Virus record (IMG/VR): IMGVR_UViG_3300029984_000001 | Coordinates: 186,001 to 250,000 of that record | Direction: 5' to 3' (one strand) | DNA length: 64,000 nucleotides | From: a virus | In this document: in pieces, positions 675 to 53,146 of the stretch | Position numbering within the stretch: the stretch's first letter is position 1 | Layout: every line of letters begins with the position of its first letter | Program-made: the position numbers and the translations under genes | Notes under the pieces: model-generated | Seen by the model: the letters and a program-made list of their open reading frames with translations, nothing else | Told to the model about the DNA's origin: nothing | Database searches by the model: none

Positions 675-1402
675 CGATTTTAGACTATATCATTTACCTA
701 TAACGAAATATATAGGCAACCTTCCACTTCCATTTAAAAAACTCTTATATCCTTATCACGGAACGGTTTTACTTATATAAAATATATAAGCTGTACTCTA
801 CTTGCTTCGTGTATTATTTCTAATACCTTATTTTCAACTAAAGAATTTCGACTTTAGTATATAGCTTTCGATAGTCGTTGAACAAAAATAAAATAACAAT
901 TTTAAAATTTATAATTTTTAGATACATCAATCCATAATATTCTATATTTAATTTTATATAGTAATTGTTTATACTTATTTCTATATCAAACCATTCTTTT
1001 ATTTTTTCTACTAAGATATGTATCTTTATTCATTATATCTCCCGAATTACTTACGAAATAATAATCTTTTACTATTGGTAAATATAATGATATTTGTCTC
1101 CATTCTTCTTGTAAATGTATTTGATCTCTTACCATGAATTGTTTATTCATATTTTCACCTCCTTCTTTGTAAGCTATCTAAAAATAAATTAATTGTTATT
1201 TTATTTCTGATGCTGATTATCCCTTGTTAATAACACTTAGCACCTTTACAGGCTTTTATTTCAGCTTATGTCAGGTTCATATATTGTTTTTACTTTCGTA
1301 ACCATTTCTCTTATAATTATGGTTTATGAACATTTGGGGAACTTCCAGCAATTCAAAAGGTTATTCGACTCTATATTACTATAGAGAAGGGACACAGAGT
1401 TT
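675..1402 (-). mobile_element. Group I intron in the DNA polymerase gene
   Basis: The 728-nt insertion separates I-T-D from T-D-S of polymerase motif C. The upstream exon ends in U (codon GAT) and the intron ends in G, as group I splicing requires. A short P1 can form between exon GGAU and intron GUCC with a U-G wobble at the splice site. The segment GTTCAACGACTATC (complement near 868-881) and the later GATATAGTC (near 683-692) can pair as P7 (GACTAT with ATAGTC). The same two core segments occur in the second intron at 36435-37665. It carries only a remnant endonuclease ORF. Excision is inferred, not shown. Confidence 0.85.
986..1150 (-). pseudogene. Remnant of intron homing endonuclease (NUMOD4-like), 54 aa
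   Basis: A strong ribosome site (AAGGAGGTG) precedes an ATG at 1150. The protein starts MNKQFMVRDQ and then has W-R-Q-I followed by Y-F-V-S-N-S-G-D-I, the usual look of a NUMOD4 motif as in the complete HNH protein of the other intron. It stops after 54 codons with no HNH motif. I read it as a truncated homing endonuclease whose catalytic part was lost. The FMVRD peptide at its N-terminus matches the recurring terminal motif of this phage. Confidence 0.7.
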
Positions 1403-2464
1403 ATCCGTTATACACACGACACTTCTAATCATATTATTGTACTTCTCGAGCCTGTTGAAATATTGAAACTTATAATATACATATTCTTCTAATAAATCTT
1501 TAAAGTATTCTAGTTCTTTTGAACCTAGACCACCATCAGGAAATTTTTTCTTATCAAATCCTGGTAATACATTAGGGTCCATATAAGGAGTATTCAGTTT
1601 TTGTAATATATCCATAAAAGCTTTATTTACATGAGGATTCTCTAAGAAATCATATAGATTATTCTTATAGTAAATTCTATTTACATTCTCTTGATTTAAA
1701 CCACATATAATATTGTATATAATATCACAATCTTTTTTAGATGGCACATAATTAAATCCACAAGTTCCTATTATTTTAGCGAAACAAGAATCTGCTGATA
1801 TATTTTCTGATAATATTATTTCATCCTTTAATTTTCTATCTACACTTTCACAAATAATATTATCTATAAATGTAATCACTTCATTTAAGCATTCAAACTT
1901 AACGTTGTTCGCTAAGAAAGCTTCAAAGAATAATCCTGCTGAGGATATACAACTCTTCGCTTGAGTAGTTATTGAAGAAGCAACATGTAAATCATATAAA
2001 ATGCAACTATATTGACCCAAGCATCCGTATAACGAATTCGTATCAATTTTAAATAGTAATTGAAGAAGATTATACTTTTCAAATTCTTCTGAACCCTTAG
2101 GGAATTTGAACATTGTGTTCTTAGCTTTCTTTCTATTATCAAGATAAGAAGAAATTAGTGGTATTAAAGGATTTCTACAATCTGCGTGCCGTTTAAAAAG
2201 CACTCCAGAAGCACACATTATAGGTTCTCTTGCTATTATATATTCTATTACATCTAGTAATGTACTATTAACAGTTTTTTCTGTATAACTATTATACAGT
2301 TTAGCTGTAGGGTTATTAAATCTTTTTCCTATAGAACTATCTACAGCACTTTCTAAATCATTCTTACTTAATCCTGGAAAATTTAAAGGTAACATTCTTA
2401 GTGCTACCTCTTTATATTTCTTAATAATCTGCTTATTGTCTAATTCTAAAGCACCACAAGCCAA
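1403..2464 (-). CDS. Family B DNA polymerase, palm/fingers exon (exon 1)
   Basis: The encoded 354 residues contain K-I-D-T-N-S-L-Y-G around residue 140, the Kx3NSxYG motif B of family B DNA polymerases. It is preceded by CASGVLFKRH and an NPLIPLISSYLDNRKKAK segment typical of the region between motifs A and B. The exon ends in V-C-I-T-D at 1403, and splicing to exon 2 restores I-T-D-T-D-S (motif C). The reading frame would otherwise run into the intron and stop at 1379. The start is a TTG at 2464 behind AAAAAGGAG; no ATG is suitably placed. The exonuclease domain and motif A (DxxSLYPS) are absent and the neighbouring upstream gene points the other way, so the polymerase appears to be split over two genes, with the N-terminal part outside this window. 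Confidence 0.88.
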
Positions 2465-2500
2465 TTTTAACCAACTCCTTTTTTGTATTATAATATGAAG

Positions 2501-2529
2501 TTGACTTATAATTCATTTTCAATTATACC
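2501..2529 (+). promoter_or_regulatory. Possible host-type promoter before the 2606 gene
   Basis: TTGACT and TATACC are separated by 17 bases in the divergent intergenic region, with the AAGGAGG ribosome site and ATG of the next gene about 75 bases on. The -10 match is weak, and AT-rich DNA gives such matches by chance. Confidence 0.25.
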
Positions 2530-2605
2530 TTAAAATAGGTAACATTATAATAAATTGTATTAAATACAAGTAAATATTATATATAATAACAAGGAGGAAT
2601 TTCTC

Positions 2606-3082
2606 ATGGGAAGATACACAGCTGACAATATGTATACATCAAACCAACAATCATTAGAAGAAAGTTTTCAATTGGAAGCCATTGATGAATCAATGACTCT
2701 TAGTCCAGAAGGTGTTAGAGAGTTTAATGAAAGTTATTTATGTTATGAATTATCATGTCTATCTGAGGCAAAGATTCAACAATTCTTAGAATCTGCTGAA
2801 TGTATGGCAATGCTTGAAAAAGGATTAATTGGTAAAAAGACAATGGTTAGACTTTCTAAAGTAGATGACTTAGAAAGAAGAACATCAATGGCTTGTATCC
2901 AATTAGCAAAAGAAAAGAATGATCCTTTATTTGATAAGTTGGCTCTTAATAGAGTTAAAGAAAGACAGCTATTATCAGCTATTGAAACAAGATATGCCAA
3001 TCCTGCTAAGAGAGCTGCAACTATTCAACAAAAAGAACACATCCAAAATTCTAGACTTCCAATTGGATATGCTAGAAAATAA
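2606..3082 (+). CDS. Hypothetical protein, 158 aa
   Basis: A clear AAGGAGGAATT ribosome site precedes the ATG. The protein is mostly helical by composition (SLEESFQLEAIDESM, then KVDDLERRTSMACIQLAKEKND) and ends in a basic stretch (NSRLPIGYARK). I recognise no family. It is the first plus-strand gene after the divergent polymerase gene and is followed by its own hairpin terminator, so it is probably a single-gene transcript. Confidence 0.75.
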   Translation: MGRYTADNMYTSNQQSLEESFQLEAIDESMTLSPEGVREFNESYLCYELSCLSEAKIQQFLESAECMAMLEKGLIGKKTMVRLSKVDDLERRTSMACIQLAKEKNDPLFDKLALNRVKERQLLSAIETRYANPAKRAATIQQKEHIQNSRLPIGYARK

Positions 3083-3097
3083 TATAATTAATAAATT

Positions 3098-3127
3098 GGA
3101 TAGTGGTAAAACACTATCCATATTTTA
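3098..3127 (+). terminator. Rho-independent terminator after 2606 gene
   Basis: GGATAGTG and CACTATCC form an 8-bp stem with a short loop, followed by ATATTTTAT. Confidence 0.75.
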
Positions 3128-3141
3128 TGACCAATATATAA

Positions 3142-3166
3142 TATAATTATATATTATACATATGAG
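3142..3166 (+). promoter_or_regulatory. Candidate phage promoter (TATAATTATATATTATA element)
   Basis: The 17-bp element is followed by CATATGAG and lies about 60 bases before the 3224 start. It is one of about a dozen near-identical copies found in front of genes in this window. Confidence 0.6.
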
Positions 3167-3223
3167 AACAAAGTAATAGAATACATTAGAAGAAGTATTT
3201 ATTTTAATGAAGGAGAGATTATT

Positions 3224-3709
3224 ATGAAAACAGTGCTAACAACACTCAAATTTCCAGAAGGAGAATTTTATTCAAATGTTATATTAACAGAATATGAAGA
3301 TATCTTTAGACTAAGAGAAATATACACATCATGGAGAGAACTATGTAACATGTCGATTAACTTAGGTTTTAGAGCTAATAATATTCCAGATATATTAGGT
3401 ATATCTTTATTTTGTATACAAAATAATGCTTTAAGAATCCCTAATAAAAATAAAAGAGTATCATATACATTTAATTGTTATAAAAATGAAAAATGTATTC
3501 AGGTTAGATCGTGTGCGACTAAAACTGATTTAACCTCTTTTGGTAAAAATGATGTATATGATATATTTGTTTTTATAGACTTTTATAGAAAAGGAGAATG
3601 GGATGGAAGTTTTGATATTTATGAAATTCCAGCTTATGTCTTATATGAGGCTAAGGTTAATTCTACAAAATCATTAGCAGAACAACAACAAGAGGGGAAA
3701 ACGATCTAG
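3224..3709 (+). CDS. Hypothetical protein, 161 aa
   Basis: The start is supported by GAAGGAGAG eight bases upstream. No known domain is recognised. A segment near residue 120 (FYRKGEWDGSFDIYEIPAYVLYE) resembles a segment near the C-terminus of the next gene's product (IKEEWDGNIDSLKYIYEV), so the two may share a small domain. It follows a candidate phage promoter, which suggests it is the first gene of the 3224-5896 operon. Confidence 0.7.
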   Translation: MKTVLTTLKFPEGEFYSNVILTEYEDIFRLREIYTSWRELCNMSINLGFRANNIPDILGISLFCIQNNALRIPNKNKRVSYTFNCYKNEKCIQVRSCATKTDLTSFGKNDVYDIFVFIDFYRKGEWDGSFDIYEIPAYVLYEAKVNSTKSLAEQQQEGKTI

Positions 3710-3799
3710 ATTTAGTATAAAAGAAAAAATAATAGAAAAAGGTTTATATCTAAATAGATCAACTTATAATTTATTTTAATGAAGGAGTGTGTAAAATAT

Positions 3800-5203: not shown

Positions 5204-5206
5204 AAT

Positions 5207-5916: not shown

Positions 5917-5924
5917 GTGATAGG

Positions 5925-8045
5925 ATGAAAAGCGAATTTATTGATGACATTATACAAGACTTGAATGACATAGTTTTATACTATGATAACTATTATGTAT
6001 TTGCAGATTTTGCAAAAAATAAACAAATGATATTTGATGTAAGAACACTAAATATCAATAATTATGATGCTCATTATACTGGTATATTGAATCTGATGAA
6101 AGATACAATAGAAACAGAATATATGACAGATTACATGATTACATTAAAATTCGATGAAGATAAGTACTGTAAAATGAGTATACCTGATTTATGGATGAAT
6201 CTTATAATGTGGTATATCATAGTAAAGACAAATAGAGTAATTAAACCTAAATACATATTCTTTGAAGATTGTATCACAAAGAAAAACATTAAAGAGTACA
6301 TAGACAATTATCTTATAGATGAGTATACTACATCTATTGATATTATTGATTTAAATAATATTATTGATGATTGTCTTCATAAACTGTTAGATATTAATGA
6401 ATTTAGTATGTTCCTAGCTAATACTATCAACTTGGAAGACTTCGTAATACTAATGAATGAAGATCCAAGATTTAATGAATGTATACATGCCAATATAGGA
6501 AAAGACGTTCCTTTAGATGAAATAAAGAATGTAGGAATGGATTATACTATGGAAGCTGTAGAAAGAATTAAACAATCTAAACATGGATTGGCTAGTTTCT
6601 TTAGGGCACAAGAAGGAATTAATACGAAACAGTTTAAAGAGTTTGGTATCAATATTGGTACTAAACCAGACGGTATGGGTGGGATATTTCCTACAGTAGT
6701 AAATACAAACTTCTTAATTGGAGGTGTAAATGATTTACTATCATACCACATAGAATCCCATAGTGGGCGTCTTGCTCAAATAATAGTCGAAGATAACGTA
6801 TCCGATTCAGGATATTTTGCTAGACTATTGGGTATCAATAATATAGATTCTTTTAACCACGAAGATCCAAATTATGATTGTGGAACTAGAAATTTCGTAC
6901 CAGTTACTATAACTAGAAAGAATATAAGATTATACAATTCAAGGTTTTATAGAATGACTCCCAATGGTATGGAATATCTATTAAAAGAAACTGATACACA
7001 TTTATTTGACAAGACAATATTTTTACGTTCTCCAATGACATGTCGTTCTCATGTAGAAGGACATGGCATTTGTTATAAGTGTTATGGTCATCTAGCTTAT
7101 ATAGTTAGATTAATCAATGCAGGAAAAATAGCAGCAGAATTAATGTCATCTGAATTAACTCAAAAAATGCTATCTGCTAAGCATTTATTGGAAGCCGCAG
7201 TAAGAGCACTAATATGGAGTACAGGATTTGTTGACTATTTTATAGTCGATTGGAATAATTTGAAATTGAAACCTGATGTTGATTTTACTAATTGTAAACT
7301 TGTTATTGCAGCTAATACTATATGGATAGATTCTGAAGAAGAAGATGAAATGAGTGGGGAAATGAGAGAATATATTCCTAATTTCCATATTCAACTATCA
7401 GATGGTAATAGAATACAAATAAAAACTGCTGATTGTAATGACTTGTTTTTAACAGCTGATTTAAATAACTCTATAAGAGAATATGGAATACCTGGAGATA
7501 ATCATGAAATATTGATAGATCTAGATAAACTTAAAGGTTTACCTTTGTTCTCTGTAGATAATATTAATAACGATCTAAATGATACGTTAAATAAAATCAG
7601 AAAAACTATCAACCATAAAGATACAACAGAAGGTTTCAATATGCAACAAATTCTGGAAACATTACTGCATAATTTAGGAGAAGGAGGAATGCATTTATCA
7701 TCCGTACATGCAGAAACAATTATATCTAATCAAATCAGAAGTACAGATTTTATATTAGATAGACCCGATTGGAGTGTTCCTAATCAGAAATATAGAATAC
7801 TTGCACTTAAAACAGCTTTAACAAACCATCCTTCAATTAGTGTTACTATGGCATTTGAAGGTATTAAGGCTGCATTATACAATCCATTAACTTTTAAGAA
7901 GAATAAACCTAGTTTCTTAGATTTATTCTTTGTAGTAAAACCACAAGAATACCTTTCAGATAAAACAAAAGTTACTAAAACAACTTTTGGTGATAAAGAT
8001 TCGACTGGGAAAACGATATTTATGAAACGTGATAAATTAGAATAA
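5925..8045 (+). CDS. DNA-directed RNA polymerase beta' subunit, C-terminal half (phage multisubunit type)
   Basis: The 706-aa protein carries the second half of a bacterial-type beta' subunit. Around residues 222-275 is the bridge helix/trigger loop region: GTKPDGMGGIFPT, then NTNFLIGGVNDLLSYHIESH and NVSDSGYFARLL, aligning with AKPDG, [21 protein letters not shown] and TANSGYLTRRL of bacterial beta'. Around residues 372-424 is a second zinc-binding region (CRSHVEGHGICYKCYGHL) followed by AAELMSSELTQKMLSAKH, the counterpart of the conserved GEPGTQLTMRTFH region. The matching N-terminal half is on the minus strand at 36228-39093. The protein ends in IFMKRDKLE, the recurring FMxRD terminal peptide. 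Whether it is a virion or non-virion enzyme cannot be told from sequence. Confidence 0.92.
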   Translation: MKSEFIDDIIQDLNDIVLYYDNYYVFADFAKNKQMIFDVRTLNINNYDAHYTGILNLMKDTIETEYMTDYMITLKFDEDKYCKMSIPDLWMNLIMWYIIVKTNRVIKPKYIFFEDCITKKNIKEYIDNYLIDEYTTSIDIIDLNNIIDDCLHKLLDINEFSMFLANTINLEDFVILMNEDPRFNECIHANIGKDVPLDEIKNVGMDYTMEAVERIKQSKHGLASFFRAQEGINTKQFKEFGINIGTKPDGMGGIFPTVVNTNFLIGGVNDLLSYHIESHSGRLAQIIVEDNVSDSGYFARLLGINNIDSFNHEDPNYDCGTRNFVPVTITRKNIRLYNSRFYRMTPNGMEYLLKETDTHLFDKTIFLRSPMTCRSHVEGHGICYKCYGHLAYIVRLINAGKIAAELMSSELTQKMLSAKHLLEAAVRALIWSTGFVDYFIVDWNNLKLKPDVDFTNCKLVIAANTIWIDSEEEDEMSGEMREYIPNFHIQLSDGNRIQIKTADCNDLFLTADLNNSIREYGIPGDNHEILIDLDKLKGLPLFSVDNINNDLNDTLNKIRKTINHKDTTEGFNMQQILETLLHNLGEGGMHLSSVHAETIISNQIRSTDFILDRPDWSVPNQKYRILALKTALTNHPSISVTMAFEGIKAALYNPLTFKKNKPSFLDLFFVVKPQEYLSDKTKVTKTTFGDKDSTGKTIFMKRDKLE

Positions 8046-10906: not shown

Positions 10907-12517
10907 GTGATTAAGATTGTTGTGGAACATAGTAAAATTATTATAAATGATTACGATTTAGGTGATTGTGAATCTTTAGAGAATTTCTTTAGTATATTTG
11001 ATCCTAGTACACACACAAGATTTCCATTTGGAATGTATTATAAACAAGAAGAAAGACAATTAGTTATACCAAGAGGAGTAGATATTTCTTATATAAAGAA
11101 TAAATTTAATTGTATACCACAATTAAATAAAAGACACGATCCTATGGACAAGATAGAACCAATAAAATTAAGACACCCACCAAGAGATAATAATCAAAGA
11201 GAAACATTAAGATTTATGTTAGGAAAAAGTGAATATTATTATACAACAACAAAATCTATGTTAGCAGTAAATTTAGCTCCAGGAGTTGGAAAAACATATT
11301 GTTCTATAGCAACTTCAGCTTTCATTGGATATAGAAGTATAATGTTAACCTCATCATTATCATGGATAGAACAATGGAAACAAGAAATATTAAAATATAC
11401 AGATATTAAACCTAGAGAGATATTCATTATTGCAGGCACTCCATCTATTCATTCTATATTAAAACAAGGTGTACATAAATTTAAATTCATATTAGCTAGT
11501 ATGGATACAATTATATCATATGGTCAAAAATACGGGTTTGATAAAATATCTGAACTATTTGTAAAATTAAGAGTAGGAATTAAATATATAGATGAAGCTC
11601 ATTTAAATTTTAAAGCCATGATGTTGATAGATTTCTATACAAATACATATAAGAATTATTATTTAACAGGTTCCCCTTGTCGTTCTAGTGAAGACCAAGA
11701 TAGAATATATAAGATATATTTTAAAAATGTCCCTTCTATAGATTTATTTGATGAGACTAAAGATCCTCATACTGATTATTTAGGTATGAGATACAATTCT
11801 CATCCGACTGCGGCTGATATATCTTATTGTAAGAATAAATATGGATTAGATAGAAATAAATATACAGGGGATTATATTATAAGACGTCCTAATTTTTATA
11901 ATATCTTAAGAGTAATAATAGATAGAACTCTTGCTAAGAATGGTAAGATTTTATTTTATATAGGAGTAAATCGTTCAATAGAAGTAGTAAAAGCATGGAT
12001 GGAAATGTATTATCCTTTTTTAATTGGACATATAGGAATATACACAAGCACTACTTCAAAGGATATCAAAAGATCACAATTAGATAAAAAATATATACTA
12101 TCTACAACTAAATCTTGTGGAGCTGCTATGGATATAAAAGGTCTAGCTACTACTGTTATACTGGCTGAACCATTCAAATCGGAACCCTTAGCAATACAAA
12201 CTTTGGGTAGAACAAGAGATGACGATACTGAGTGTATAGAGGCTGTTGATGAAGGATTTAACGCCATAATGAGATTTTACTACCAAAAGCAACCTATTAT
12301 GAAAAAATATGCTTTGTCAGTAAATGATGTTAGATATAAAGATGAAACTCTAGAAGATAAGATAAATGAAATATTTGATAGATATTATGGTGATGGTGAA
12401 TTCCCTGTAATCTATATAGATAACAAAAAGATATTTATGCTAAGACAAGAATTAAGACCTATAAATGAATATGATTCTAAAGGAAGAAAAGTATTTATGA
12501 AAAGAGATAAATTTTAG
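10907..12517 (+). CDS. Superfamily 2 DNA helicase (UvsW/DEAH type)
   Basis: The start is a GTG behind TTGAGGTGATTAG. The 536-aa protein has motif I APGVGKT at about residues 125-131, motif II YIDEAH near 228, motif III-like YYLTGSP near 246 and motif VI QTLGRTRDDD near 431, the order expected for SF2 helicases such as phage UvsW. Such proteins act in branch migration, recombination-dependent replication or origin control; the exact role here is inferred. The last residues are VFMKRDKF, almost identical to the C-terminus of the RNA polymerase subunit at 5925-8045 although the proteins are unrelated. Confidence 0.88.
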   Translation: MIKIVVEHSKIIINDYDLGDCESLENFFSIFDPSTHTRFPFGMYYKQEERQLVIPRGVDISYIKNKFNCIPQLNKRHDPMDKIEPIKLRHPPRDNNQRETLRFMLGKSEYYYTTTKSMLAVNLAPGVGKTYCSIATSAFIGYRSIMLTSSLSWIEQWKQEILKYTDIKPREIFIIAGTPSIHSILKQGVHKFKFILASMDTIISYGQKYGFDKISELFVKLRVGIKYIDEAHLNFKAMMLIDFYTNTYKNYYLTGSPCRSSEDQDRIYKIYFKNVPSIDLFDETKDPHTDYLGMRYNSHPTAADISYCKNKYGLDRNKYTGDYIIRRPNFYNILRVIIDRTLAKNGKILFYIGVNRSIEVVKAWMEMYYPFLIGHIGIYTSTTSKDIKRSQLDKKYILSTTKSCGAAMDIKGLATTVILAEPFKSEPLAIQTLGRTRDDDTECIEAVDEGFNAIMRFYYQKQPIMKKYALSVNDVRYKDETLEDKINEIFDRYYGDGEFPVIYIDNKKIFMLRQELRPINEYDSKGRKVFMKRDKF

Positions 12518-23009: not shown

Positions 23010-23069
23010 ATGCAATCATTTATGTCAAGAGATCCAATTCCTATAAAAAATCACGATAAAATAGGATAA
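23010..23069 (+). CDS. Micro-ORF of 19 codons consisting largely of the FMSRD motif
   Basis: A near-perfect ribosome site (AAAAAGGAGGTGA) stands before an ATG encoding MQSFMSRDPIPIKNHDKIG and a TAA. The N-terminus matches the recurring M-x-x-F-M-x-R-[D/E] of unrelated proteins here and is closest to MKKFMTREPIKKF at 27996. It may be a functional micropeptide or the surviving 5' end of a gene truncated when the adjacent homing endonuclease inserted. Confidence 0.5.
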   Translation: MQSFMSRDPIPIKNHDKIG

Positions 23070-23096
23070 GTAAGTTACAATAATAATCAAACTTAC

Positions 23097-23682
23097 ATGG
23101 AAATAATTGATTATAAATCATATGGAAATATTGATATCATGTTGATTAACATATTATCTGATGGGACTATATATTACACAAAAAGAGAAAATAAAAGTAC
23201 TTGGGCTTTTCATAATGGAGGTATTAGTTGTATATTTGACAAAACAATATATAATGTAGGTTATATCGGAGGATATAAGTACTCATTAAACTCTAACTGT
23301 GCAACTAAATGGAGGGATATGTTGAGAAGGTCATATGATATATGGACCTAATACATGTTGTTTTTTACCAAATGATCTAAATATATTATTTAAAAAAGAA
23401 ACAAAAGAAACAGACCTACCAATAGGTGTATTTTTCATAAAAAGAGGAAAAGAAAAACCATATGGTGCAAGTATTAGTATTAATAATAAAACAAAGACTA
23501 TTGGGGTGTTTTCAACTTCAACTCCAGAAGAAGCTTTCTATGCTTATAAAGAAGCTAAAGAAGATTATATAAAAGAAATAGCAAATCATTATATGTATGA
23601 AAAAGGTGGACAATATATACCACAATATAGAGATGTCGTATATCCAGCTTTATTAAATTACAAAATAGAAATAGACGATTAA
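23097..23682 (+). pseudogene. Degenerate free-standing HNH homing endonuclease (core deleted, frame broken)
   Basis: Two overlapping frames (23097-23351 and 23335-23682) read as one decayed gene. The first has the usual beginning of a phage HNH protein, including VGYIGGYKYSLNS, and the phrase TKWRDMLRRSYD; the second continues with IYGPNTCCFLPNDLNILF, LPIGVFFIKR and a TPEEAFYAYKEAKEDYIKEIANHY tail. In intact relatives the HNH catalytic block lies between R-x-Y and the G-P-x-T-C-C-F-x-P stretch. That block is missing here and the join changes frame, so nuclease activity should be lost. Confidence 0.72.
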
Positions 23683-27995: not shown

Positions 27996-29510
27996 ATGAA
28001 AAAATTTATGACTAGAGAACCTATTAAAAAATTCATTAATGTTTCAGATTGGGAACCTGAACCAGAAGACATAATAATAAATCAGATAAACGATTATGTA
28101 TTAATTCCTGTATCTAAATACTTTAATGCAGATCAAACAATGGATTATTTTTCAGTAAGATCAAAGAAAGTTTATAATAAAATTAAAGTAAGAGCTTTAA
28201 TAGTACATAAACTTAATTATTTCGAAAAGTTCTATGATACTGATAGAGAGTTATTAACTGTTTATGCTAATATTAAATACCTTATTGATTGTGAACCGAA
28301 TTATAGTAAAGATGCATTGTTCTATGATCTCAAAAGATACATAATAAATGGACCATCCATATCATTAAAAATGGATTATATGAATAAGGATAATTATAGA
28401 CCAGCTAAAATTAAATTTAGTGGTACAGATAGGTTATTATATTATGATAATACTCATATAGCTATAATGATGAGGATATCATTAACAATGACATTAATTA
28501 TTCCTTTATTAACACACTTCGCTAATAAAAGGAAAGTTCAAATAATAGATGAATTTCTATTAGAAATATACAGTTACATAATAAAGGAGTATGAAGATTT
28601 TGTAGATTTATTTGAAAAATTTACAGCAACTTGTTCTACTAATATAGCTAAGAATAAAAGAAACAATGCTATATGGAATAACCAAGACATAAGAGCTATT
28701 AATCAATCAACACATGCAATATATTCTGTCAATAATATTATACTTAATCTTATGCCTAAGTATATATATAATGATAGTCCAGTTACGCTTAATTATGCTA
28801 GTATAGGACAGGTAATAAAATATAAGGTAACCGACGCAGGATATGATTTTGCATATACTTCTTTATCATCTTCAGATAGGGATTTAGATGAAAATTCGTC
28901 TCTAGACAAATATGAGGCAATTCTTGTAAAAAGTGACGAATCACTATTCATTCAGAATAAGGTTAATGGTGCTACTACAATGTCTAGAATAAGAATGTAT
29001 TTTGGTCCTTTCGATCAAAATGAAATTGAGTTCTATAGAAAAAGACTTTTATTAGATGATAAGAGTGTTATACATGCTTTACAAAAAGAATTAATTTTTA
29101 ATATGTTCTATAAATACTTTGGTGATACTTCCTCTAGTAATACTATAACAGAAGATGATTATATAGTATTATTATTAACAGCTAAGAAGATTTGTTTACA
29201 ATCAGACTTACTTGTTTTACCTTGTGTGTTTAGTAGTAAGATAATCAAATATACAAAGAAAACAAAGTTAAATAAAAAAGAAAAAGATAGGATGATTGCT
29301 TCTCCTATTTATAAAATGATTATGGAGAAATATAATAATAATAAAAAGGTAGAAGCTCAAATAGAAGAATGGGCAGCCACTATATTATCATGTGAATTTG
29401 AAATTATAGATAGTAATAGAGAATCAAATAGTACTGATTATGTTGTACTACCTAAGTTTCCTGATTATGTAGTAAATGAGGTATTGAAATTTGCTTCTTG
29501 GGTATCATAA
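27996..29510 (+). CDS. Conserved-looking phage protein beside primase, 504 aa
   Basis: The ATG at 27996 behind GAGGAGGGATT is chosen over the upstream TTG. The protein begins MKKFMTREPIKKF, an N-terminal copy of the recurring FMxR[D/E] motif. The rest is mostly helical, with IMMRISLTMTLIIPLLTHFANKR as one hydrophobic helix near residue 160 and a NAIWNNQDIRAIN stretch near 230. The stop codon overlaps the primase start region (one base apart), so the two are translated together, which suggests a replication or transcription role. I recognise no domain. Confidence 0.72.
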   Translation: MKKFMTREPIKKFINVSDWEPEPEDIIINQINDYVLIPVSKYFNADQTMDYFSVRSKKVYNKIKVRALIVHKLNYFEKFYDTDRELLTVYANIKYLIDCEPNYSKDALFYDLKRYIINGPSISLKMDYMNKDNYRPAKIKFSGTDRLLYYDNTHIAIMMRISLTMTLIIPLLTHFANKRKVQIIDEFLLEIYSYIIKEYEDFVDLFEKFTATCSTNIAKNKRNNAIWNNQDIRAINQSTHAIYSVNNIILNLMPKYIYNDSPVTLNYASIGQVIKYKVTDAGYDFAYTSLSSSDRDLDENSSLDKYEAILVKSDESLFIQNKVNGATTMSRIRMYFGPFDQNEIEFYRKRLLLDDKSVIHALQKELIFNMFYKYFGDTSSSNTITEDDYIVLLLTAKKICLQSDLLVLPCVFSSKIIKYTKKTKLNKKEKDRMIASPIYKMIMEKYNNNKKVEAQIEEWAATILSCEFEIIDSNRESNSTDYVVLPKFPDYVVNEVLKFASWVS

Positions 29511-30593: not shown

Positions 30594-30915
30594 ATGGTAT
30601 ACATAATTAATGATAATAATGTGAAAGAATTATTAGAAAGCAATGATATTAAATTTAAATCTTTTGAAACGGTAATTAGATGCATTTTGTGATGAAGAAG
30701 CTACATATAGAATTGATCAATTTGAAGATGATTTTAAAGAAAAATTTACAGAAGAAGCCAAAGATAAATTACAGTGTAATTTATCTAATATATATAATGA
30801 TAATAATGAAAGTTTTATAAATTCAGATGAATTATATAATCTATCATGTAATGAGATAGATGATTTTATAGAAAGTCATAGAGGCAAAATGCAAATATTT
30901 ATGACTAGAGAATAA
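30594..30915 (+). pseudogene. Frame-disrupted small acidic protein with C-terminal FMTRE
   Basis: TTAAGGAGGAAAA precedes an ATG whose frame stops after 32 codons at a TGA near 30690. Dropping one base near 30676-30680 joins it to a long open frame (LDAFCDEEATYRIDQFEDDF and onward) that ends IFMTRE and TAA at 30915. The combined protein would be about 106 residues. The C-terminus again carries the FMxR[D/E] motif. The shift could be a real mutation, recoding, or a sequencing or assembly indel. Confidence 0.6.
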
Positions 30916-36434: not shown

Positions 36435-37665
36435 CACACATTAACCTATTGTGAACGCAACTTCACCAGAAGATTTTCATCTTCCCAGACTATATCATCC
36501 CTTATGGGCTACCTCTTTCGAATCTATCATAAGCTTATAGATCCTACTCTACTCAATATTAAAGTTATATTTATTTGATATTTCGGTATGAGATTCTTTT
36601 CTTTTTATCCTACCAATTATACTTCTTTGTTGTTGAAATTCCCCTGGTAGTTTCAATTCATCTATAATTGCTCTAGTTGAATATCCTTTAGATAATAATT
36701 TACAAATGTTTTCTACATATGGAAAGAAATCTATTTGAGGTTTCTTCTCTTTAAATTTATATAATGTGGATATATGTTTCCATCTTTTACCTTTAATAAT
36801 ATGACTTACATTAAATCTATTATTTTCAGTATTTTCCATATTAGATTTTATTAAAGCATTTCCATATGAATCTCCATCTTGAACATATTTGCAAATACTA
36901 TGTACTTGTTCTTCTGTCCATTTACTCATACCATTATTTTCTCCATAAGTATTTTCTCCAGTACCCCAACCTCCATCTTCCTTGACAAATCTTGATTCAA
37001 CATGTTTAGAAAATTCTCTATCTGTATCTTTATTTTGAAACTCATGTTCAAGATTTTCTAGTTGAGTACACCATTCTAAATTACCATAGAATGCATCTGA
37101 TCTACATAAATTTTTATGGTTTACTTGAGTTTTATTTATTGGGTCTGGATTAAATACATACATGGTAGCAACCAAAATATGTACAAAGAAAGATTTTCTA
37201 GTAGAATCATTTAATTGTAAAGATACTGATAAATATCCATTAGATAGTGCTACCGATAATAAATTACCTTCTATATTTAAAAATCTACCATAATTACTTA
37301 TCTTATAACCTGTTCTGATATTATAACATTGTAAATCTACCCATTGTTCTATAGGATTAGGATATTCTATTAATGGGTTTATACCTTGTGAGAAATCGTC
37401 TCTTATCATAAAACTTTTCATTTATTCTCATCTCCTTTCGTGTATATAATATATAACTTTAATATCTTTTGATAGTCGTTGAACGTTCCCTATACATCAT
37501 CATATAAGGCTTCGATGCTGATTACCCAATTATTAATCATTCTCAAGCATTCACGCTTATAGTTTCCCATTACGTTGTAGCTGATTAACTTACAAGGGCG
37601 TTCCAGCAGTTAAGGTAGTTTTTGTTTCGACGCACATCGTCAAGAAGACTACAATGGTGAGGTTT
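36435..37665 (-). mobile_element. Group I intron in the RNA polymerase beta' gene
   Basis: This 1231-nt insertion lies exactly between G-D-Y and D-G-D-Q of the beta' catalytic motif. Exon 1 ends in U and the intron ends in G. P1 is well supported: exon AGACUAU pairs over seven positions with intron GUAGUCU, with the U-G wobble at the splice site. P7 can form between GACTAT (complement of 37471-37480) and ATAGTC (complement of 36487-36496). The core segments GTTCAACGACTATC and GATATAGTCT match the first intron. It carries a full HNH endonuclease ORF. Splicing is inferred from sequence only. Confidence 0.9.
36549..37421 (-). CDS. Intron-encoded HNH homing endonuclease (NUMOD4-HNH)
   Basis: GAAAGGAGATGAGAATAA precedes the ATG at 37421. 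The 290-aa protein has a NUMOD4-like start (IEQWVDLQCYNIRTGYKISNYGRFLN), a typical HNH block (FVHILVATMYV, QVNHKN, NLEWCTQLENLEHEF) and C-terminal DNA-binding repeats (GMSKWTEEQVHSICKYV, HIIKGKRWKHIS, and GYSTRAIIDEL). It should cleave intronless beta' alleles and so spread the intron. It begins MKSFMIRDDFSQG, an N-terminal FMxRD motif shared with unrelated phage proteins and with the remnant ORF of the other intron. Confidence 0.9.
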   Translation of the reverse strand: MKSFMIRDDFSQGINPLIEYPNPIEQWVDLQCYNIRTGYKISNYGRFLNIEGNLLSVALSNGYLSVSLQLNDSTRKSFFVHILVATMYVFNPDPINKTQVNHKNLCRSDAFYGNLEWCTQLENLEHEFQNKDTDREFSKHVESRFVKEDGGWGTGENTYGENNGMSKWTEEQVHSICKYVQDGDSYGNALIKSNMENTENNRFNVSHIIKGKRWKHISTLYKFKEKKPQIDFFPYVENICKLLSKGYSTRAIIDELKLPGEFQQQRSIIGRIKRKESHTEISNKYNFNIE

Positions 37666-39679: not shown

Positions 39680-41395
39680 CTATATACTTCCTAGTTGAGC
39701 CACCTGATGTTGCGTAAAAAGGAGATCTTCTGCCGACATTTGATGTTCTGGTTCTATATAATTACATTTAGGACATTTACTTTCAGGTATTTTATATGTA
39801 ATACCTTGTTCTTCTTCACTTGCTTCTTTATATATGTAAGATAATAAAGTTTGAAATTGTGCAGTATTTAATTCTTTAGTTATAATCAAACCGTATTTTC
39901 TTATCTTGTTTTTAAGAACTTTTCTTGCTTTTTCCCTATCATCTTTTTCAACGTCAATTGTCAAATCTATAGGTCTGAATTGTTCATTTTGTCTATCTAT
40001 AAGATATATAGTATCTACATAAGTTAATATATTTATTATACTACTATATTTCTTTCTAAATTCAGGTTCTAGTAAATAAGGCTCAATATTATTTTTCCAA
40101 ATAGAAGGTTTCTTTAATTTAAATAAATAATCATCTGATATTTGATAACCTTTACCCTCTATTTTGTATGGAGAATCATCTGGATTATTTAATATATCAT
40201 AATATTTAGCTTCTGCTTCTGGAGAATCAAATTTCATCATATTCTTAATAGGAATATATTTATTTAAATAAGGTGCTTTACAATGATCACATTGAGCTGC
40301 TAATATATTACTATCTTTAAATGAACTTATAAATCCACCCATATAAATATGATTCAAATCCACAGATAAAGTATTCTTTAACCATGTAAATACATCAACA
40401 GGTTTAGTTCCTCTTAAATGATCATATAATATTTTAAATTTCTTAATCAATTGTCCATACTCTCCACCAGTCTCTAATTCAGCTACTAGCTCATTTACTT
40501 CGAAACCTTCTAATTCTTCCATAGCAAATATTCTTTTTGAGTTCCATAAAACATGTTCCTCAATATCTTTATGTCTTGTAGAAGAAGCATTGTTAATATT
40601 AACAGGTTTTCCAAATCCAAATTTACTTATATCTATCGGATTCTTAATAGGTTTCAATGATGCTTTTATATCAGCTCTCATTGCTTCAAACATTTTATCT
40701 AATTCTTCTGTAGTAAATTTTAGATCTTTTTCTATTTGAGCTTCTTCATCTTCATCATCTATTTTAATATAATCAATATCTTTTGGAATTTCTTTTTCAT
40801 CGAAATCGTTTTTATCAAACATTTCAGAATTTATTTTAGAAGCATCTTCTAACGATAAATTGGCACCACTTTTCATAACTGTATTACTATTAGATTCAAT
40901 CATTTTTATAGGACTTACAAACTCTTTTTCATTAGGGTCTGGTATAACACCATGTTCATTATATATAACTAATTTTTCTTCTACTACATCATCTATAACT
41001 ATAGATGATTTTATTTCAACTGATTCTTTTTCTTGATGTATTATTAGTTTTTCTTCCATATCATCATCTCCATATTCCATTGATAATTCGGGTATATCTA
41101 AATCGTTATCATTATAAGTATTTTTTAATACACCACTTTCTTCCATTTGTCTTCTTTCTATTTCTTCTTGTTTCAATTTATTGAATACAATCTTTTCTTC
41201 TTTAAGTGCATTTATTCTATTATCTATCAAACTCATAATATTATTTTCAGATTCTATATTTTTCTCTTTTGCTTCTTTGGATTGCTCTTCCCTTTTGCTC
41301 CCCTCTACTATTTTTTTGATTTTTGTCATATCCACTTCTTCATATTTAGTATCTTTTTTTCTCATTTGATTAAGTGTACTTGGTTTTTCATTCAT
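39680..41395 (-). CDS. Zinc-binding virion or baseplate-hub-associated protein, 571 aa
   Basis: AGGAGGTAATATAA precedes the ATG at 41395. The first 230 residues are acidic and disordered with coiled-coil stretches. The folded C-terminal part has two cysteine pairs, CDHC near residue 367 and CPKC near 545, and ends EDLLFTQHQVAQLGSI. A C-terminal zinc pair followed by a short hydrophobic tail occurs in T4 gp26-like hub assembly proteins, but that link is loose. It lies directly behind the gp25-like gene, which supports a baseplate context. Confidence 0.6.
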   Translation of the reverse strand: MNEKPSTLNQMRKKDTKYEEVDMTKIKKIVEGSKREEQSKEAKEKNIESENNIMSLIDNRINALKEEKIVFNKLKQEEIERRQMEESGVLKNTYNDNDLDIPELSMEYGDDDMEEKLIIHQEKESVEIKSSIVIDDVVEEKLVIYNEHGVIPDPNEKEFVSPIKMIESNSNTVMKSGANLSLEDASKINSEMFDKNDFDEKEIPKDIDYIKIDDEDEEAQIEKDLKFTTEELDKMFEAMRADIKASLKPIKNPIDISKFGFGKPVNINNASSTRHKDIEEHVLWNSKRIFAMEELEGFEVNELVAELETGGEYGQLIKKFKILYDHLRGTKPVDVFTWLKNTLSVDLNHIYMGGFISSFKDSNILAAQCDHCKAPYLNKYIPIKNMMKFDSPEAEAKYYDILNNPDDSPYKIEGKGYQISDDYLFKLKKPSIWKNNIEPYLLEPEFRKKYSSIINILTYVDTIYLIDRQNEQFRPIDLTIDVEKDDREKARKVLKNKIRKYGLIITKELNTAQFQTLLSYIYKEASEEEQGITYKIPESKCPKCNYIEPEHQMSAEDLLFTQHQVAQLGSI

Positions 41396-48602: not shown

Positions 48603-48616
48603 AGGGGGTGTCGTAA

Positions 48617-48853: not shown

Positions 48854-48864
48854 TTATTATAAAT

Positions 48865-48895
48865 AAAAGGGATTTAGTTCCCTTTTATTTTTTAT
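48865..48895 (+). terminator. Rho-independent terminator
   Basis: AAAAGGGA and TCCCTTTT form an 8-bp stem followed by ATTTTTTAT. Confidence 0.86.
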
Positions 48896-48930
48896 CGAAA
48901 AACATTAGACTAATAAAAGGAGGGGTTTAG

Positions 48931-50496
48931 ATGATGATACCTGAAATATTAACATTAGAAATTTTAGAAGAAGCTATAAATAATCCATCAGAAGATAATA
49001 TAAGTGATAATGGAACTATTGATGTATTCTCTACAATAGAAGATCTACCGTATTATGATGCAAGTGCTCTTATAGATATGGGAGTGTACAATATTACAAG
49101 TTCTAGTAATTATTTTGATTGTCCACCAGATAATTATATTATAGGAGAAGATATAAGGACAAGCCAATGGTTCGAACAATATAAAATGTTATGCAATGGA
49201 ATTATAACTCAAGAGTATTTAGATTTGTCTATAGATAGATTAAGAAAATTACAAGAGTTGTATTTAGATTATGACAGTATAATCAAAGAGGGTTCTATAT
49301 CTCGAATTAATGCTAGAAAACAATCAATATTAGAATTAGGACATAATCCTGAAATATCATTTAATTTGAAGATTAGAACTAGAATCAATGAAATGAGAAG
49401 AGTAGAGTTATCTTCTAAATTAGAATCATTTGAAGAAGTAATTGCTGAAGATATAAATTGTAGAGATTATTTAACAGAATCAGTACATAAAATAAAAGAT
49501 AGTGTTGTATATGTTGTCTTAACATATACTGGAACTACATTTGGTAAGATAATATCTAAAGTTACAAACTGTAAGTACTCTCACGCTGGTATATCTTTTA
49601 ACAGTGATTTATCAGAGGTTTATTCATTTAATGGTTCAACTAATGGGTTTAGTCATGAATCTATCAAAAAATATATGAGTGAGAGTAAAGAAGCTAGAAT
49701 AGTTGTTTATGGGATTGTATTACCTAAATTTAAATTAGACACAATGAAGACCACTGTTGAGACTATTAAAAAAAGTGATTATAGTTATAGTTTCTTAACT
49801 GGTTTAACTGCTGTATTAAATAAACCAATGAAACGAAATAATGCTATGATTTGTTCTCAATTTGTAGATTCAATACTTAAGTCTGGTAAAATAAATATAT
49901 TAAAAAGAGATAGTTCTGTAGTTTTACCATCACATTTCTATGGTACTAAGAGTAAAAGAATGATTAAATTATTTGAAGGTCCAATGATTGATTATAATAG
50001 TATAAAGGCTGCTTCTTTAATAGGTAATTATATAGAAAAAAATCCTGTAGAAGAATCTGTAGTATTAGAAGTAAAAGAGTTTCCTGCTGGATTTGATGAA
50101 GATGGTAATCTGTTAATAAAGAATATGAAGAAACTAGATTATAATTTAGAATATTCCAAATCCCATAAACTATTAAAGAGTTATGAAAAATCTGAGAACT
50201 ATTATCCTATGGCATATGAATTAAGCAAGTTGTGGTTTATGAATAGTTTATTAGAGGAGAAGATTTATAATGGTAAGATTAAACCAGAAGAAAAGAAAGA
50301 TTTATTCACTATACGATCTAAAATACTTAATGATTTTAATAGATATTTACCTATATTATGTGAGCATGAGAAAGGGTTTAATTTTACTCATTATTATAAT
50401 GATACTCCTTTCTCGGATTCGGTATATAAAATAAATCATAGCACTATAAAATATAGTATAGATTTGTTAAAGAATATAAAACTATTAATGTTGTAA
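48931..50496 (+). CDS. Permuted NlpC/P60 (YiiX-like) cysteine hydrolase domain protein, 521 aa
   Basis: AAAGGAGGGGTTTAG precedes the ATG. Near residue 190 begins YVVLTYTGTTFGKIISKVTNCKYSHAGISF, and near residue 304 comes AMICSQFVDSILKSG. The His of Y-S-H-A-G and the Cys of I-C-S-Q-F are the expected catalytic pair, in the circularly permuted papain-like order seen in YiiX-type proteins. Substrates in this group include peptides, amide bonds and lipids; here a cell-wall or virion role is only inferred. The N- and C-terminal parts are helical and unrecognised. Confidence 0.72.
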   Translation: MMIPEILTLEILEEAINNPSEDNISDNGTIDVFSTIEDLPYYDASALIDMGVYNITSSSNYFDCPPDNYIIGEDIRTSQWFEQYKMLCNGIITQEYLDLSIDRLRKLQELYLDYDSIIKEGSISRINARKQSILELGHNPEISFNLKIRTRINEMRRVELSSKLESFEEVIAEDINCRDYLTESVHKIKDSVVYVVLTYTGTTFGKIISKVTNCKYSHAGISFNSDLSEVYSFNGSTNGFSHESIKKYMSESKEARIVVYGIVLPKFKLDTMKTTVETIKKSDYSYSFLTGLTAVLNKPMKRNNAMICSQFVDSILKSGKINILKRDSSVVLPSHFYGTKSKRMIKLFEGPMIDYNSIKAASLIGNYIEKNPVEESVVLEVKEFPAGFDEDGNLLIKNMKKLDYNLEYSKSHKLLKSYEKSENYYPMAYELSKLWFMNSLLEEKIYNGKIKPEEKKDLFTIRSKILNDFNRYLPILCEHEKGFNFTHYYNDTPFSDSVYKINHSTIKYSIDLLKNIKLLML

Positions 50497-50507
50497 AAGT
50501 TCAATTA

Positions 50508-50535
50508 TTTGATTATATATTATAAGTATGAATAA
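50508..50535 (+). promoter_or_regulatory. Candidate phage promoter (GATTATATATTATA element)
   Basis: The right part of the element is present, followed by AGTATGAATAA. It lies about 70 bases before the small gene at 50601. Confidence 0.5.
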
Positions 50536-50600
50536 CATATTGAAGTTGATTAATTTCAACTTCATATTTTATATTAAATTACATAGAGGAGAGAAATAAA

Positions 50601-50756
50601 ATGGATAATAAAATTGAACAAGAGGTAATTTTAATGGAAAATGAAATGGAAAACAATAGAGTCTTAAATGAAAACCTAATAGAAATAGACAGAGCATTTC
50701 AACAACAACAAATAATGGATATGCAAATTAATTTAGGATTTGGAATGGTATTTTAA
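50601..50756 (+). CDS. Hypothetical small acidic protein, 51 aa
   Basis: ATAGAGGAGAG precedes the ATG. The product is an acidic helix (MDNKIEQEVILMENEMENN) followed by a Gln-rich stretch (RAFQQQQIMDMQI) and GFGMVF. No family is recognised. Confidence 0.55.
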   Translation: MDNKIEQEVILMENEMENNRVLNENLIEIDRAFQQQQIMDMQINLGFGMVF

Positions 50757-50781
50757 TAATAATAAAGAGGAGCGAAATAAT

Positions 50782-51261
50782 ATGAAATTAAGTATAGAAG
50801 CACAACAAAAAATAATGAATATCATGAGTATAAAATATAGTATATGTAGTTTAGAAGACTATAGAATCGTTAATATAGAAATATTTACAGAAGATGATAA
50901 ATCTATGGTAGACTTAAATTTTGATACTTCTTTGATTACAAAAGATAATATTGAATTTATTAAACTTATATTAAATAATATAGAAAATAATATGGATACT
51001 TGGGAAAAATTATATGATACTAAGAAAATTAAAAACTATTCTATAAATTTTGAAAAAAGATGTTTCGGAGTTGTATCTAATAATGAAGAAAATTTATCCA
51101 TCAATGATAATGATAAAATTTTAGAAAGATACATAACTGATAATGAAAATGAAATTATATTAGAAGAGACTTTATCGTTAAATTATCTTAGAGAAGGTAT
51201 GAAAGAATATATCAATGGAATACTATTAGAAATAGTTGCGGTTGTAGAATCAGAATTATAA
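50782..51261 (+). CDS. Hypothetical protein, 159 aa
   Basis: The frame opens at 50740, but AAAGAGGAGCG before the ATG at 50782 decides the start. The protein has a beta-rich start (IVNIEIFTEDDKSMVDLNFD) then helices. Its layout resembles the next two genes in size and in the order of acidic beta and helical parts, so they may be distant paralogs. Function is unknown. Confidence 0.64.
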   Translation: MKLSIEAQQKIMNIMSIKYSICSLEDYRIVNIEIFTEDDKSMVDLNFDTSLITKDNIEFIKLILNNIENNMDTWEKLYDTKKIKNYSINFEKRCFGVVSNNEENLSINDNDKILERYITDNENEIILEETLSLNYLREGMKEYINGILLEIVAVVESEL

Positions 51262-51268
51262 AATGAGT

Positions 51269-51298
51269 AGAACTGGATTTTTCCAGTTCTATATTTTA
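51269..51298 (+). terminator. Rho-independent terminator
   Basis: AGAACTGGA and TCCAGTTCT form a 9-bp stem followed by ATATTTT. Confidence 0.85.
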
Positions 51299-51327
51299 CG
51301 ATAAATAATATAAAGGTGGTAATACTA

Positions 51328-51792
51328 ATGAATACAAATATTGTAAAAGTAACAAATAATATATTAACAACAATGGGGTTAATGAATAAGAGTAAATACT
51401 CTTTATTTAAAGAAGAAAATGACATGGTATTAGAATTAGAACCAATTATAGATTGTCATATAGGAATTAACTTAGAAAGTATTAATAATGAAGCTAAAGC
51501 TTTTATTAAACTTCTTACAGATTCTATATCATTTGATGATGATAATTCATTATTTGAATTATATATAGATAATAAAATTAAGAATTTCTTCGTTGATTAT
51601 AATATAGGATTAATATATATAATTAATAAAGAGAACACAATTCATTGTGCATATGAATACGGTATTGAAGGTAAAGATTATATTACATTTGTAGATGAAT
51701 CAAATGATTCAATATTATATTTTGAAATAGCTAGTCATTTAAGTAAAGATATAATAATACAATCAGCAAGACAAATAATAAATTTAATTTAA
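51328..51792 (+). CDS. Hypothetical protein, 154 aa
   Basis: AAAGGTGGT before the ATG at 51328 is the start; an in-frame GTG at 51316 overlaps the ribosome site. Mixed alpha/beta with an acidic middle (DSISFDDDNSLFELYIDN). No domain is recognised. Probably in an operon with 51807. Confidence 0.62.
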   Translation: MNTNIVKVTNNILTTMGLMNKSKYSLFKEENDMVLELEPIIDCHIGINLESINNEAKAFIKLLTDSISFDDDNSLFELYIDNKIKNFFVDYNIGLIYIINKENTIHCAYEYGIEGKDYITFVDESNDSILYFEIASHLSKDIIIQSARQIINLI

Positions 51793-51806
51793 AGGAGAGA
51801 ATAATA

Positions 51807-52241
51807 ATGGTAAATATATTTACACTAAACTATGCTAATGATTGGATAATTGAAGAGGAACATGATATGATTAAAATTAAACCTAAGGATTTTAATCCTA
51901 TAAAAGCTGACTTTATAATTTCTAAAGAATATAAATTAATACCAATTCATATGAGAGAGATTGTAGAGATTCTGTATAATTTTTGTAATATACAAAGATT
52001 AAATAAAATGATGACTAAGGATTATCTTAAAAATATAAAATTAGTATCAGACACATTAATATTCTCATCAGAAAATATTATATTTACAATTATAAATAAA
52101 GAAAAAGGAGTTGAGATTCTTGTATTAGATAAAGATGAAAATTTGATACTAAATATATTATGTCATGAGTCTTATATAACGGAAGAAGATTATGATGTTA
52201 TATATGAAACTTGTAAAGAGATATTAAAGAAATTATTATAG
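51807..52241 (+). CDS. Hypothetical protein, 144 aa
   Basis: AAAGGAGAGAATAATA precedes the ATG. It contains IPIHMREIVEILYNFCNIQRLNKM and a beta-rich part (DTLIFSSENIIFTIINKEKGVEILVLD) similar in order to the previous gene. Function is unknown. The stop lies at a terminator. Confidence 0.62.
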   Translation: MVNIFTLNYANDWIIEEEHDMIKIKPKDFNPIKADFIISKEYKLIPIHMREIVEILYNFCNIQRLNKMMTKDYLKNIKLVSDTLIFSSENIIFTIINKEKGVEILVLDKDENLILNILCHESYITEEDYDVIYETCKEILKKLL

Positions 52242-52244
52242 ATG

Positions 52245-52272
52245 GGTTGTATAAAACAACCTTTTCTTTTTT
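52245..52272 (+). terminator. Rho-independent terminator
   Basis: GGTTGT and ACAACC form a short stem followed by a T-rich run. Confidence 0.75.
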
Positions 52273-52285
52273 ATATAAAAAATAT

Positions 52286-52313
52286 TATAATTATATATTA
52301 TAGTATTGGTAAA
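52286..52313 (+). promoter_or_regulatory. Candidate phage promoter (TATAATTATATATTATA element)
   Basis: A perfect 17-bp element followed by GTATTGGTAAA, between a terminator and the 52344 gene. Confidence 0.6.
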
Positions 52314-52343
52314 CAGAATAAATATATTAAGGAGATTGATAAA

Positions 52344-53146
52344 ATGAAACAATTTATGAAAAGAGATAAAGAATTAAATAATGAAGTAATGGATGAAATA
52401 CATAATAATTTTATAGCATATGATTTTACAAGACCACAAATAATTCAACCACAAAATATTAGTAATGGATATGAAATGTGTCTGAATAATAGTTTCATTA
52501 ATCTAGAAGTTACAGAAGAAGATATATTAGACAATAAAGAGATAAGAAAGAATATGTTAGATAGAACTTCTGTTCTCGATAAAATTAAAGGTTTAGTTTT
52601 AATATCTAAATTAAATTATTGTACACTAAGAATGGTGTCAGAGTATTTTGAGATAGACTATCACACATTAGATAAATGTATTCAAAGAAATGAGGATGAA
52701 TTTGATAATGGTTTGATTAAAAAGACTGGTAGAGAGATTATAGAATTGATAAATAATTCTGTTTCATCGGACATTAAGTCCGTTCAAAAATCTAATAATG
52801 ATATAAATACACATAGAGGTGTTTTACTTACGATAATGAAAATTTTAATAACAAATCCAACACCTTATTAAATAAAAGAGTTATATTAAATATTGCTATG
52901 TTATTAAGAGATTCTGGAGTAGCTAAATATATAAGAAAAATGTTATTAGATAATACAGAAAATTGTCAATATAATAATTTATTACCTCAGGAATATTCTA
53001 ATGAATTGATAGAAAGTATACAAATAATTAAAGCTGGATTAAGAATGAATAGAACTTTATCTGATATTGAAATTGCTTATAAAAATGGTATAATAGATCA
53101 AAAAGAATATGTTTTATTAAAACAAGATCAAAATACTATTATTTAA
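52344..53146 (+). pseudogene. Antirepressor-like DNA-binding protein with a frame change
   Basis: AAGGAGATTG precedes the ATG at 52344. The first frame (to 52871) gives MKQFMKRDKELNN, then GLVLISKLNYCTLRMVSEYFEID and a region ending THRGVLL. The second frame, open from about 52817, continues NKRVILNIAMLLRDSGVAKYIRKMLLDN to 53146. Together they have the order of phage antirepressor-type proteins: helix-turn-helix, then [R]-A-I-L-x-x-x-M-L-L-R-D-S-x-V-A-K. A shift within about 52815-52835 would rejoin them. The N-terminus again has the FMKRD motif. Confidence 0.62.

Follow-up and report, generated by a model that had tools for sequence, protein, structure and literature searches.

Lineage-specific terminal peptide tags on non-virion transcription and replication proteins and homing endonucleases of PBS1-like jumbo phages

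Results

The DNA analyzed here is a 64,000-nucleotide stretch (the window; G000:186001-250000) of a 263,571-base uncultured virus record, IMGVR_UViG_3300029984_000001 (G000), in which transcription and replication proteins and homing endonucleases carry a short recurring peptide, FMxR, hereafter the tag. The beta' subunit of the G000 non-virion RNA polymerase (nvRNAP) was 28.8% identical to its counterpart in Bacillus phages AR9/PBS1, and a gp226-like subunit matched the AR9 holoenzyme structure 7s01 by profile (7s01_A, E = 2.7e-26) and by fold in Foldseek (7s01_A, E = 4e-13). Because of these two matches, we identify G000 as a distant PBS1-like jumbo phage; it has the multisubunit nvRNAP with a gp226-type specificity subunit that characterizes PBS1/AR9-like jumbo phages. 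In a related genome, G001, beta' was 73% identical to that of G000.

All copies of FM-x-R-[D/E] that an initial annotation of the window had listed were found in place and in frame, including FMER copies inside a polymerase exon, which proved to be that of the catalytic half of DNA polymerase. The motif was also in excess at protein ends. In the window proteome FM.R[DE] occurred 7 times versus 0.14 in shuffled proteins, with 5 terminal copies versus 0.04. The corresponding values for the available G000 proteome were 20 versus 0.23 and 15 versus 0.03; the stretches of G000 beyond the window were picked mostly around tag matches, a bias of which the window, G001, and the whole-genome searches are free. 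AR9 had a single match (0.29 in shuffles). A whole-genome search of G000 with the pattern TTYATGNNNMGNGA returned 27 matches (23 on the plus and 4 on the minus strand), compared to 0 for the reversed-pattern control, and FM.RD was the top-ranked terminal motif of G000 in a motif-blind scan.

Controls with the letters of the motif permuted and [DE] kept gave 0 to 1 matches. The neighboring motifs [LIVYW]M.R[DE], F[LIV].R[DE], and FM.K[DE] were likewise found 0 to 1 times each in G000 and never at a terminus; therefore, F, M, and R are all required. The consensus of the initial annotation held for this FMxR core and not for its fifth position, where D or E is only preferred (27/49 copies). The core is often immediately preceded by [M/L]-K, which gives [M/L]KxFMxR[D/E] as the form of the tag in G000. 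Copies are in frame and mostly lie at the extreme N or C terminus or in inserted tails, and tandem copies are common: three in the nvRNAP beta tail, three in the C-terminal tail of the DNA polymerase exonuclease half, and two in the SF2 helicase tail. The N-terminal extension of DNA ligase and an insertion of the polymerase catalytic half hold two copies each. A further FMVRE, at 56881 in a PC4-like protein, lies within the fold and was left uncounted.

Carriers with recognized functions act on nucleic acid, as the initial annotation had noted. The transcription proteins among them were nvRNAP betaN (L013, E = 1e-39 to AR9 g105), beta, beta', and gp226, and the replication proteins were both halves of DNA polymerase, the SF2 helicase, and ligase. 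An AT-hook protein, nearly all NUMOD4/HNH open reading frames (ORFs), and HNH ORFs of the phrog_953 type were tagged as well. No recognized virion protein was. Counted by orthologue group, 9/16 were tagged versus 0/14 for virion proteins (Fisher p = 8e-4). Across nine genomes, tags, those of other lineages included (see below), were found on 8/8 nvRNAP beta, 7/7 beta', 7/7 SF2 helicase, and 5/5 polymerase exonuclease proteins and on 8/11 HNH endonucleases, in contrast to 0/73 virion homologues, among them 17 virion RNA polymerase (vRNAP) subunits.

The tagged features of the window are listed in Table 1. Tags survive even in broken endonuclease remnants (986-1150 and 23010). Of the ORFs listed in the initial annotation, the one at 986-1150 is a NUMOD4 fragment, and the one at 23010 forms the beginning of a disrupted HNH gene. 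This gene (23010-23682) is phrog_953-like and has a premature stop and frame shifts with the tag retained; intact relatives occur elsewhere in G000 and in G001. The label antirepressor-like, given to one carrier, has only a sub-threshold ORF6N match of its paralogue behind it.

Table 1. Tags and tagged genes of the window (positions are those of the window)
Feature	Position	Strand	Description
FMER copy 2	513..524	-	Same DNA polymerase catalytic-half insertion as copy 1; FMER retained in G001
FMER copy 1	567..578	-	Insertion, relative to AR9, in exon 1-689 (minus) of the AR9 g152 homologue, DNA polymerase catalytic half; LMER in G001
FMVRD tag	1124..1138	-	Near N terminus (MNKQFMVRD, 1150) of truncated NUMOD4/HNH ORF 986-1150 between DNA polymerase exons
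nvRNAP beta' C-part, C-terminally tagged	5925..8045	+	AR9 g154 homologue, 28.8%; phrog_3015; 7s00_D E=4.6e-60
FMKRD tag	8019..8033	+	C-terminal (FMKRDKLE), extension past AR9-aligned core of nvRNAP beta'
SF2 helicase, two C-tail tags	10907..12517	+	AR9 g156 homologue
FMLRQ tag copy	12434..12448	+	SF2 helicase C-tail
FMKRD tag copy	12494..12508	+	SF2 helicase C-tail (FMKRDKF)
FMSRD tag	23019..23033	+	Start (MQSFMSRD, 23010) of broken HNH endonuclease gene, ~23010-23682
nvRNAP promoter-specificity subunit, N-terminally tagged	27996..29510	+	AR9 gp226 homologue: 7s01_A profile/Foldseek, synteny with primase
FMTRE tag	28005..28019	+	N-terminal (MKKFMTRE) in gp226 homologue
FMTRE tag	30898..30912	+	Last five residues of small acidic protein downstream of primase
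HNH/NUMOD4 homing endonuclease, N-terminally tagged	36549..37421	-	phrog_59
FMIRD tag	37398..37412	-	N-terminal (MKSFMIRD) in HNH/NUMOD4 homing endonuclease
Small N-terminally tagged protein	52344..52871	+	Paralogue of G000 39763-40587, itself with weak ORF6N match
FMKRD tag	52353..52367	+	N-terminal (MKQFMKRD) in small protein 52344..52871

Some G000 genes are interrupted. Compared with its orthologue in G001 (G001 56323-56709), the small acidic protein after primase (window 30600-30915) is apparently broken up by a frame change, which is either real or an assembly error. The genes for DNA polymerase (window 1-2464, minus strand) and gyrase (G000 101-106 kb) are split by introns, and the NUMOD4 fragment is located in the polymerase intron. 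Because the exon ends of both genes read through into a common ..CVPSL ending, we suggest that these are related group I introns.

The tag is conserved as a peptide. Codon choice for its Arg and Phe residues matches that of the genome, and position x is unconstrained. Between G000 and G001, the beta' tag FMKR was kept through the synonymous change AAA CGT to AAG AGA and the gp226 tag FMTR through ACT AGA to ACA AGG. Since codons vary while orthologues keep the peptide, selection acts at the peptide level. A DNA motif or promoter element was ruled out by the in-frame copies, the synonymous variation, and the empty reversed control. Tags also sit outside folds, beyond the AR9-aligned cores: in C-terminal extensions of nvRNAP beta, beta', the SF2 helicase, and the polymerase exonuclease half, in the N-terminal extension of ligase, and in the insertion of the polymerase catalytic half. 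In a predicted model of gp226 averaging a predicted local distance difference test score (pLDDT) of 79, residues 1-11 had pLDDT < 50; an AlphaFold model of beta' was of insufficient quality for use. The tag thus has the general properties of a short linear motif, namely occurrence on unrelated proteins, placement in flexible tails, and conservation as peptide rather than DNA.

FMxR[DE] exceeded background only in G000, G001, G002, and small fragments of the same phage. It did not do so in some 40 related contigs, nor in phages AR9, phiR1-37, and 201phi2-1 or in phages of Staphylococcus, Listeria, and Fusobacterium. A side-by-side comparison of orthologous tails then revealed other tags: the proteins tagged in G000 bore, in each lineage, a recurrent peptide of that lineage's own. 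About ten related PBS1-like jumbo phages use other motifs (M[CV]xxV, NPFxH, xPMxF, [S/T]PIxF, and CPIxY). The initial annotation had read a single tag; the tag itself stands, and its membership in a family of lineage-specific tags had gone unseen.

In G009 and G018, the tags were VMCTTVYKE or VMCMRVYKK on the helicase, MIEMCKIV or MIMCHVV on gp226, EMVKIV on beta', KVMCKKV or LVMCKEV on beta, REMCIIV or RIMC on the polymerase, and MVEMVKFV on an HNH protein. G013 carried NPFIH/DPFIH on beta, beta', gp226, ligase, and polymerase and NPFEH/NPFVH on the helicase and HNH; G008 carried QPMEF, EPMEF, EPMIF, and YPMEF; and G012, G040, and G017 carried related P[I/M]xF or CPIxY forms. Terminal counts, observed (expected), were 23 (0.6) in G000 and 11 (0.3) in G001 for FM.R, 14 (1.5) in G009 and 15 (1.4) in G018 for M[CV]..V, 14 (0.1) in G013 for PF.H, and 10 (0.4) in G008 for PM.F. 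The motif-by-genome matrix was nearly diagonal, with smaller excesses in G012, G040, and G017 and the other cells near background. At the DNA level, NPFxH was matched 18 times in the whole G013 genome (control, 0) and 0 to 3 times in each of 16 other genomes. Over 12 lineages, 58/78 key tails bore their own lineage's motif, and a foreign motif was found in 4/234 tests; many of the untagged key tails are 3' exons of split gp226 genes. Beyond the core set, tags were swapped as well, on HNH, AT-hook, q66, and zinc-ribbon orthologues.

No tags came out of blind gapped-motif scans of G016, G012, and G017; those of G012 and G017 emerged from the orthologue-tail comparison. In G016 (L153-L157), the tag is possibly [DN]PLE (INPLEDK on gp226, DPLEI on the AT-hook protein). 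The nvRNAP and replication proteins of AR9/PBS1 are orthologous to the carriers, but the cultured AR9 had no tags. Its orthologues of carriers stop at the fold, which rules out inheritance of the tag from AR9-like ancestors. No repeated tag was seen in the few Staphylococcus, Yersinia, and Listeria phage tails inspected. Three AR9 proteins (L079-L083) have a common C terminus, RIWDCGNLVFxY; because one of them is a Hef-like homing endonuclease, this is probably a shared domain and not a tag.

Discussion

The tag is probably a short linear docking peptide or address label, specific to its lineage and carried in flexible tails and loops of homing endonucleases and of non-virion proteins for transcription and replication. 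Among the readings first proposed from the window was that of an address signal or docking peptide, and for nucleic-acid enzymes the tail location, the carrier classes, and the lineage-specific replacement support it strongly. Most likely, a phage-encoded receptor, or a small receptor family, would bind the tag of its own lineage. The late machinery (nvRNAP, DNA polymerase, helicase, and ligase) and the endonucleases would thereby be gathered or held where the phage genome replicates, at a DNA-bound hub or by passage through the boundary of a replication compartment. Because the label has been replaced wholesale on many proteins at once, we infer that label and reader change together; tag and receptor pocket would then co-evolve, so that the label of one phage would fail in another. 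We found no description of such tags in phages in the literature, and the lineage-differing terminal tags suggest a protein-targeting system not previously described in phages.

Several points weigh against this interpretation. Access to DNA does not always entail a tag: UvsX, gyrase, primase, RecD, and SbcC bind DNA, yet are untagged. Among the untagged G000 proteins, Pfam scans pointed to no receptor candidate. Two adjacent families, q78 and q79 (~200 amino acids; downstream of DNA ligase, G000 ~123.3-124.7 kb, L034:7338-8690), are putative receptors, as candidates only, by their sequence conservation: both occur in 7/7 comparable tagged genomes and are absent from AR9, and q78 is itself tagged in G013. 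Neither had a PHROG match, and PDB profile searches with them gave chance-level matches only. Moreover, all data on other lineages come from uncultured metagenomic contigs, with relatives sampled at ~100 kb each, and the tails that supplied the motifs belong to the very genomes in which these were later counted. Controls for this circularity were the off-diagonal matrix cells, the proteins outside the first-read tails, and the NPFxH counts in foreign genomes.

Other G000 genes were noted in these surveys. Five Kelch-repeat paralogues lie near tail-like genes (L130:5499-13052, G000 ~148.5-156 kb) and are probably tail proteins; Kelch propellers can bind short peptides. Single proteins matched RlaP and HAD_SAK_2 (RNA repair), an Apyc1-like/metallo-beta-lactamase fold, and the Bsp6I restriction endonuclease, and are possible counter-defence genes.

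One form that address labeling could take, raised early on as import into a phage nucleus, is a password that admits proteins to a closed compartment for replication, one that works like the chimallivirus nucleus and in which divergence of the tag excludes foreign proteins, including the homing endonucleases of competitors. We regard this as possible, though somewhat short of an even chance. In phiKZ, nvRNAP enters the nucleus and vRNAP is kept out (PMC10612078), and the split between tagged and untagged proteins matches this split; compared with chimallivirus cargo in tag distribution only, the counts were 15/15 for nvRNAP beta/beta', 8/11 for HNH, and 0/73 for virion proteins. The phiKZ/phiPA3 pair offers the closest parallel from experiment: the HNH endonuclease gp210 enters the nucleus of its own phage and is excluded from that of phiKZ (PMC11620839), and HNH genes here bear the tag of the resident lineage. 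The likeness to import by PicA/Imp1 would lie in the species-specific sorting of nvRNAP, replication proteins, and HNH endonucleases from virion and metabolic proteins. However, we detected no chimallin (phrog_4795) in G000, G001, G016, or AR9 (201phi2-1 positive control, E = 1e-220); PBS1, PALS_2, and phiR1-37 have likewise been listed as phages with multisubunit RNA polymerases and no chimallin (PMC10299810). The lack of tags on UvsX, gyrase, and primase also speaks against a password. Finally, chimallivirus import recognizes folded surfaces (PMC11087766) and is stated to use no terminal signal (PMC11087766; PMC13282480), for which reason we do not class the tag system, a short terminal peptide, as chimallivirus import, although the two may operate alike.

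The main alternative to a closed compartment is a clamp-like hub, in which the tag does for this group what a sliding-clamp or single-stranded DNA-binding protein (SSB) interaction motif does elsewhere and tethers clients to one DNA-bound protein. Sliding-clamp-binding motifs lie on N- and C-terminal tails and loops of clients such as polymerase and ligase. The tags resemble them in being short, in marking the tails and loops of DNA enzymes that are otherwise unrelated, and in the possibility of multiple copies, and the client list (polymerase, ligase, helicase, and RNA polymerase) resembles that of clamps. Nevertheless, we consider this reading rather unlikely. No beta-clamp (PF00712) or PCNA (PF00705) match was obtained in G000, G001, or AR9, although a diverged clamp could escape such a search, and the consensus sequences (FMxR[DE], M[CV]xxV, NPFxH, etc.) are unlike QL[SD]LF or the Qxx[LIM]xxFF/PIP (PCNA-interacting protein) boxes. 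Unlike clamp motifs, the tags change wholesale between lineages and mark nvRNAP and homing endonucleases; near-universal tagging of HNH endonucleases is unexpected for clamp clients.

A degradation tag, by which a host or phage protease would remove the late machinery at a set time, is very improbable: degrons are also short and found at either terminus, but tandem copies and loop positions are not what they would predict, wholesale lineage change is unexpected for a conserved host protease, and no protease partner is known. Still less credible are two other functions proposed early on, packaging into the head and a protease site, here taken as a capsid-targeting or prohead-protease sequence. 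Phage T4 internal proteins do carry a short terminal capsid targeting peptide on unrelated proteins; the tags, in contrast, occur on non-virion proteins only, at either terminus. Head packaging is contradicted because nvRNAP beta and beta' invariably carry a tag and none of the 73 virion homologues, vRNAP included, does. A protease site is unlikely, since some tags, FMTRE for one, form the end of the protein, leaving nothing to cut, and since the carriers are non-virion. We give almost no weight to a DNA-level signal, gene duplication, or chance: some carriers are paralogous (HNH, ORF6N-like, and small acidic proteins), but most are of unrelated folds, their orthologues in relatives bear replacement motifs, and the in-frame matches, variable synonymous codons, and empty control described above point the same way.

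The literature on nucleus-forming phages states that nuclear proteins lack a conserved signal sequence, and the tags reported here are a short label. With the tag, the set of proteins that a jumbo phage handles alike can be predicted from sequence alone, and this label shifts between lineages. Tags could help with the annotation of dozens of uncharacterized proteins in uncultured giant phages and provide a handle in the search for a receptor, and phage protein sorting becomes testable through simple tag swaps. The tags are also a possible molecular basis for the observation that endonucleases or polymerases of one phage do not act in another. Tentatively, jumbo phages outside the nucleus-forming family may use lineage-specific terminal password peptides and a co-evolving receptor to admit only their own late transcription/replication enzymes and endonucleases to their genomes and to exclude those of rivals.

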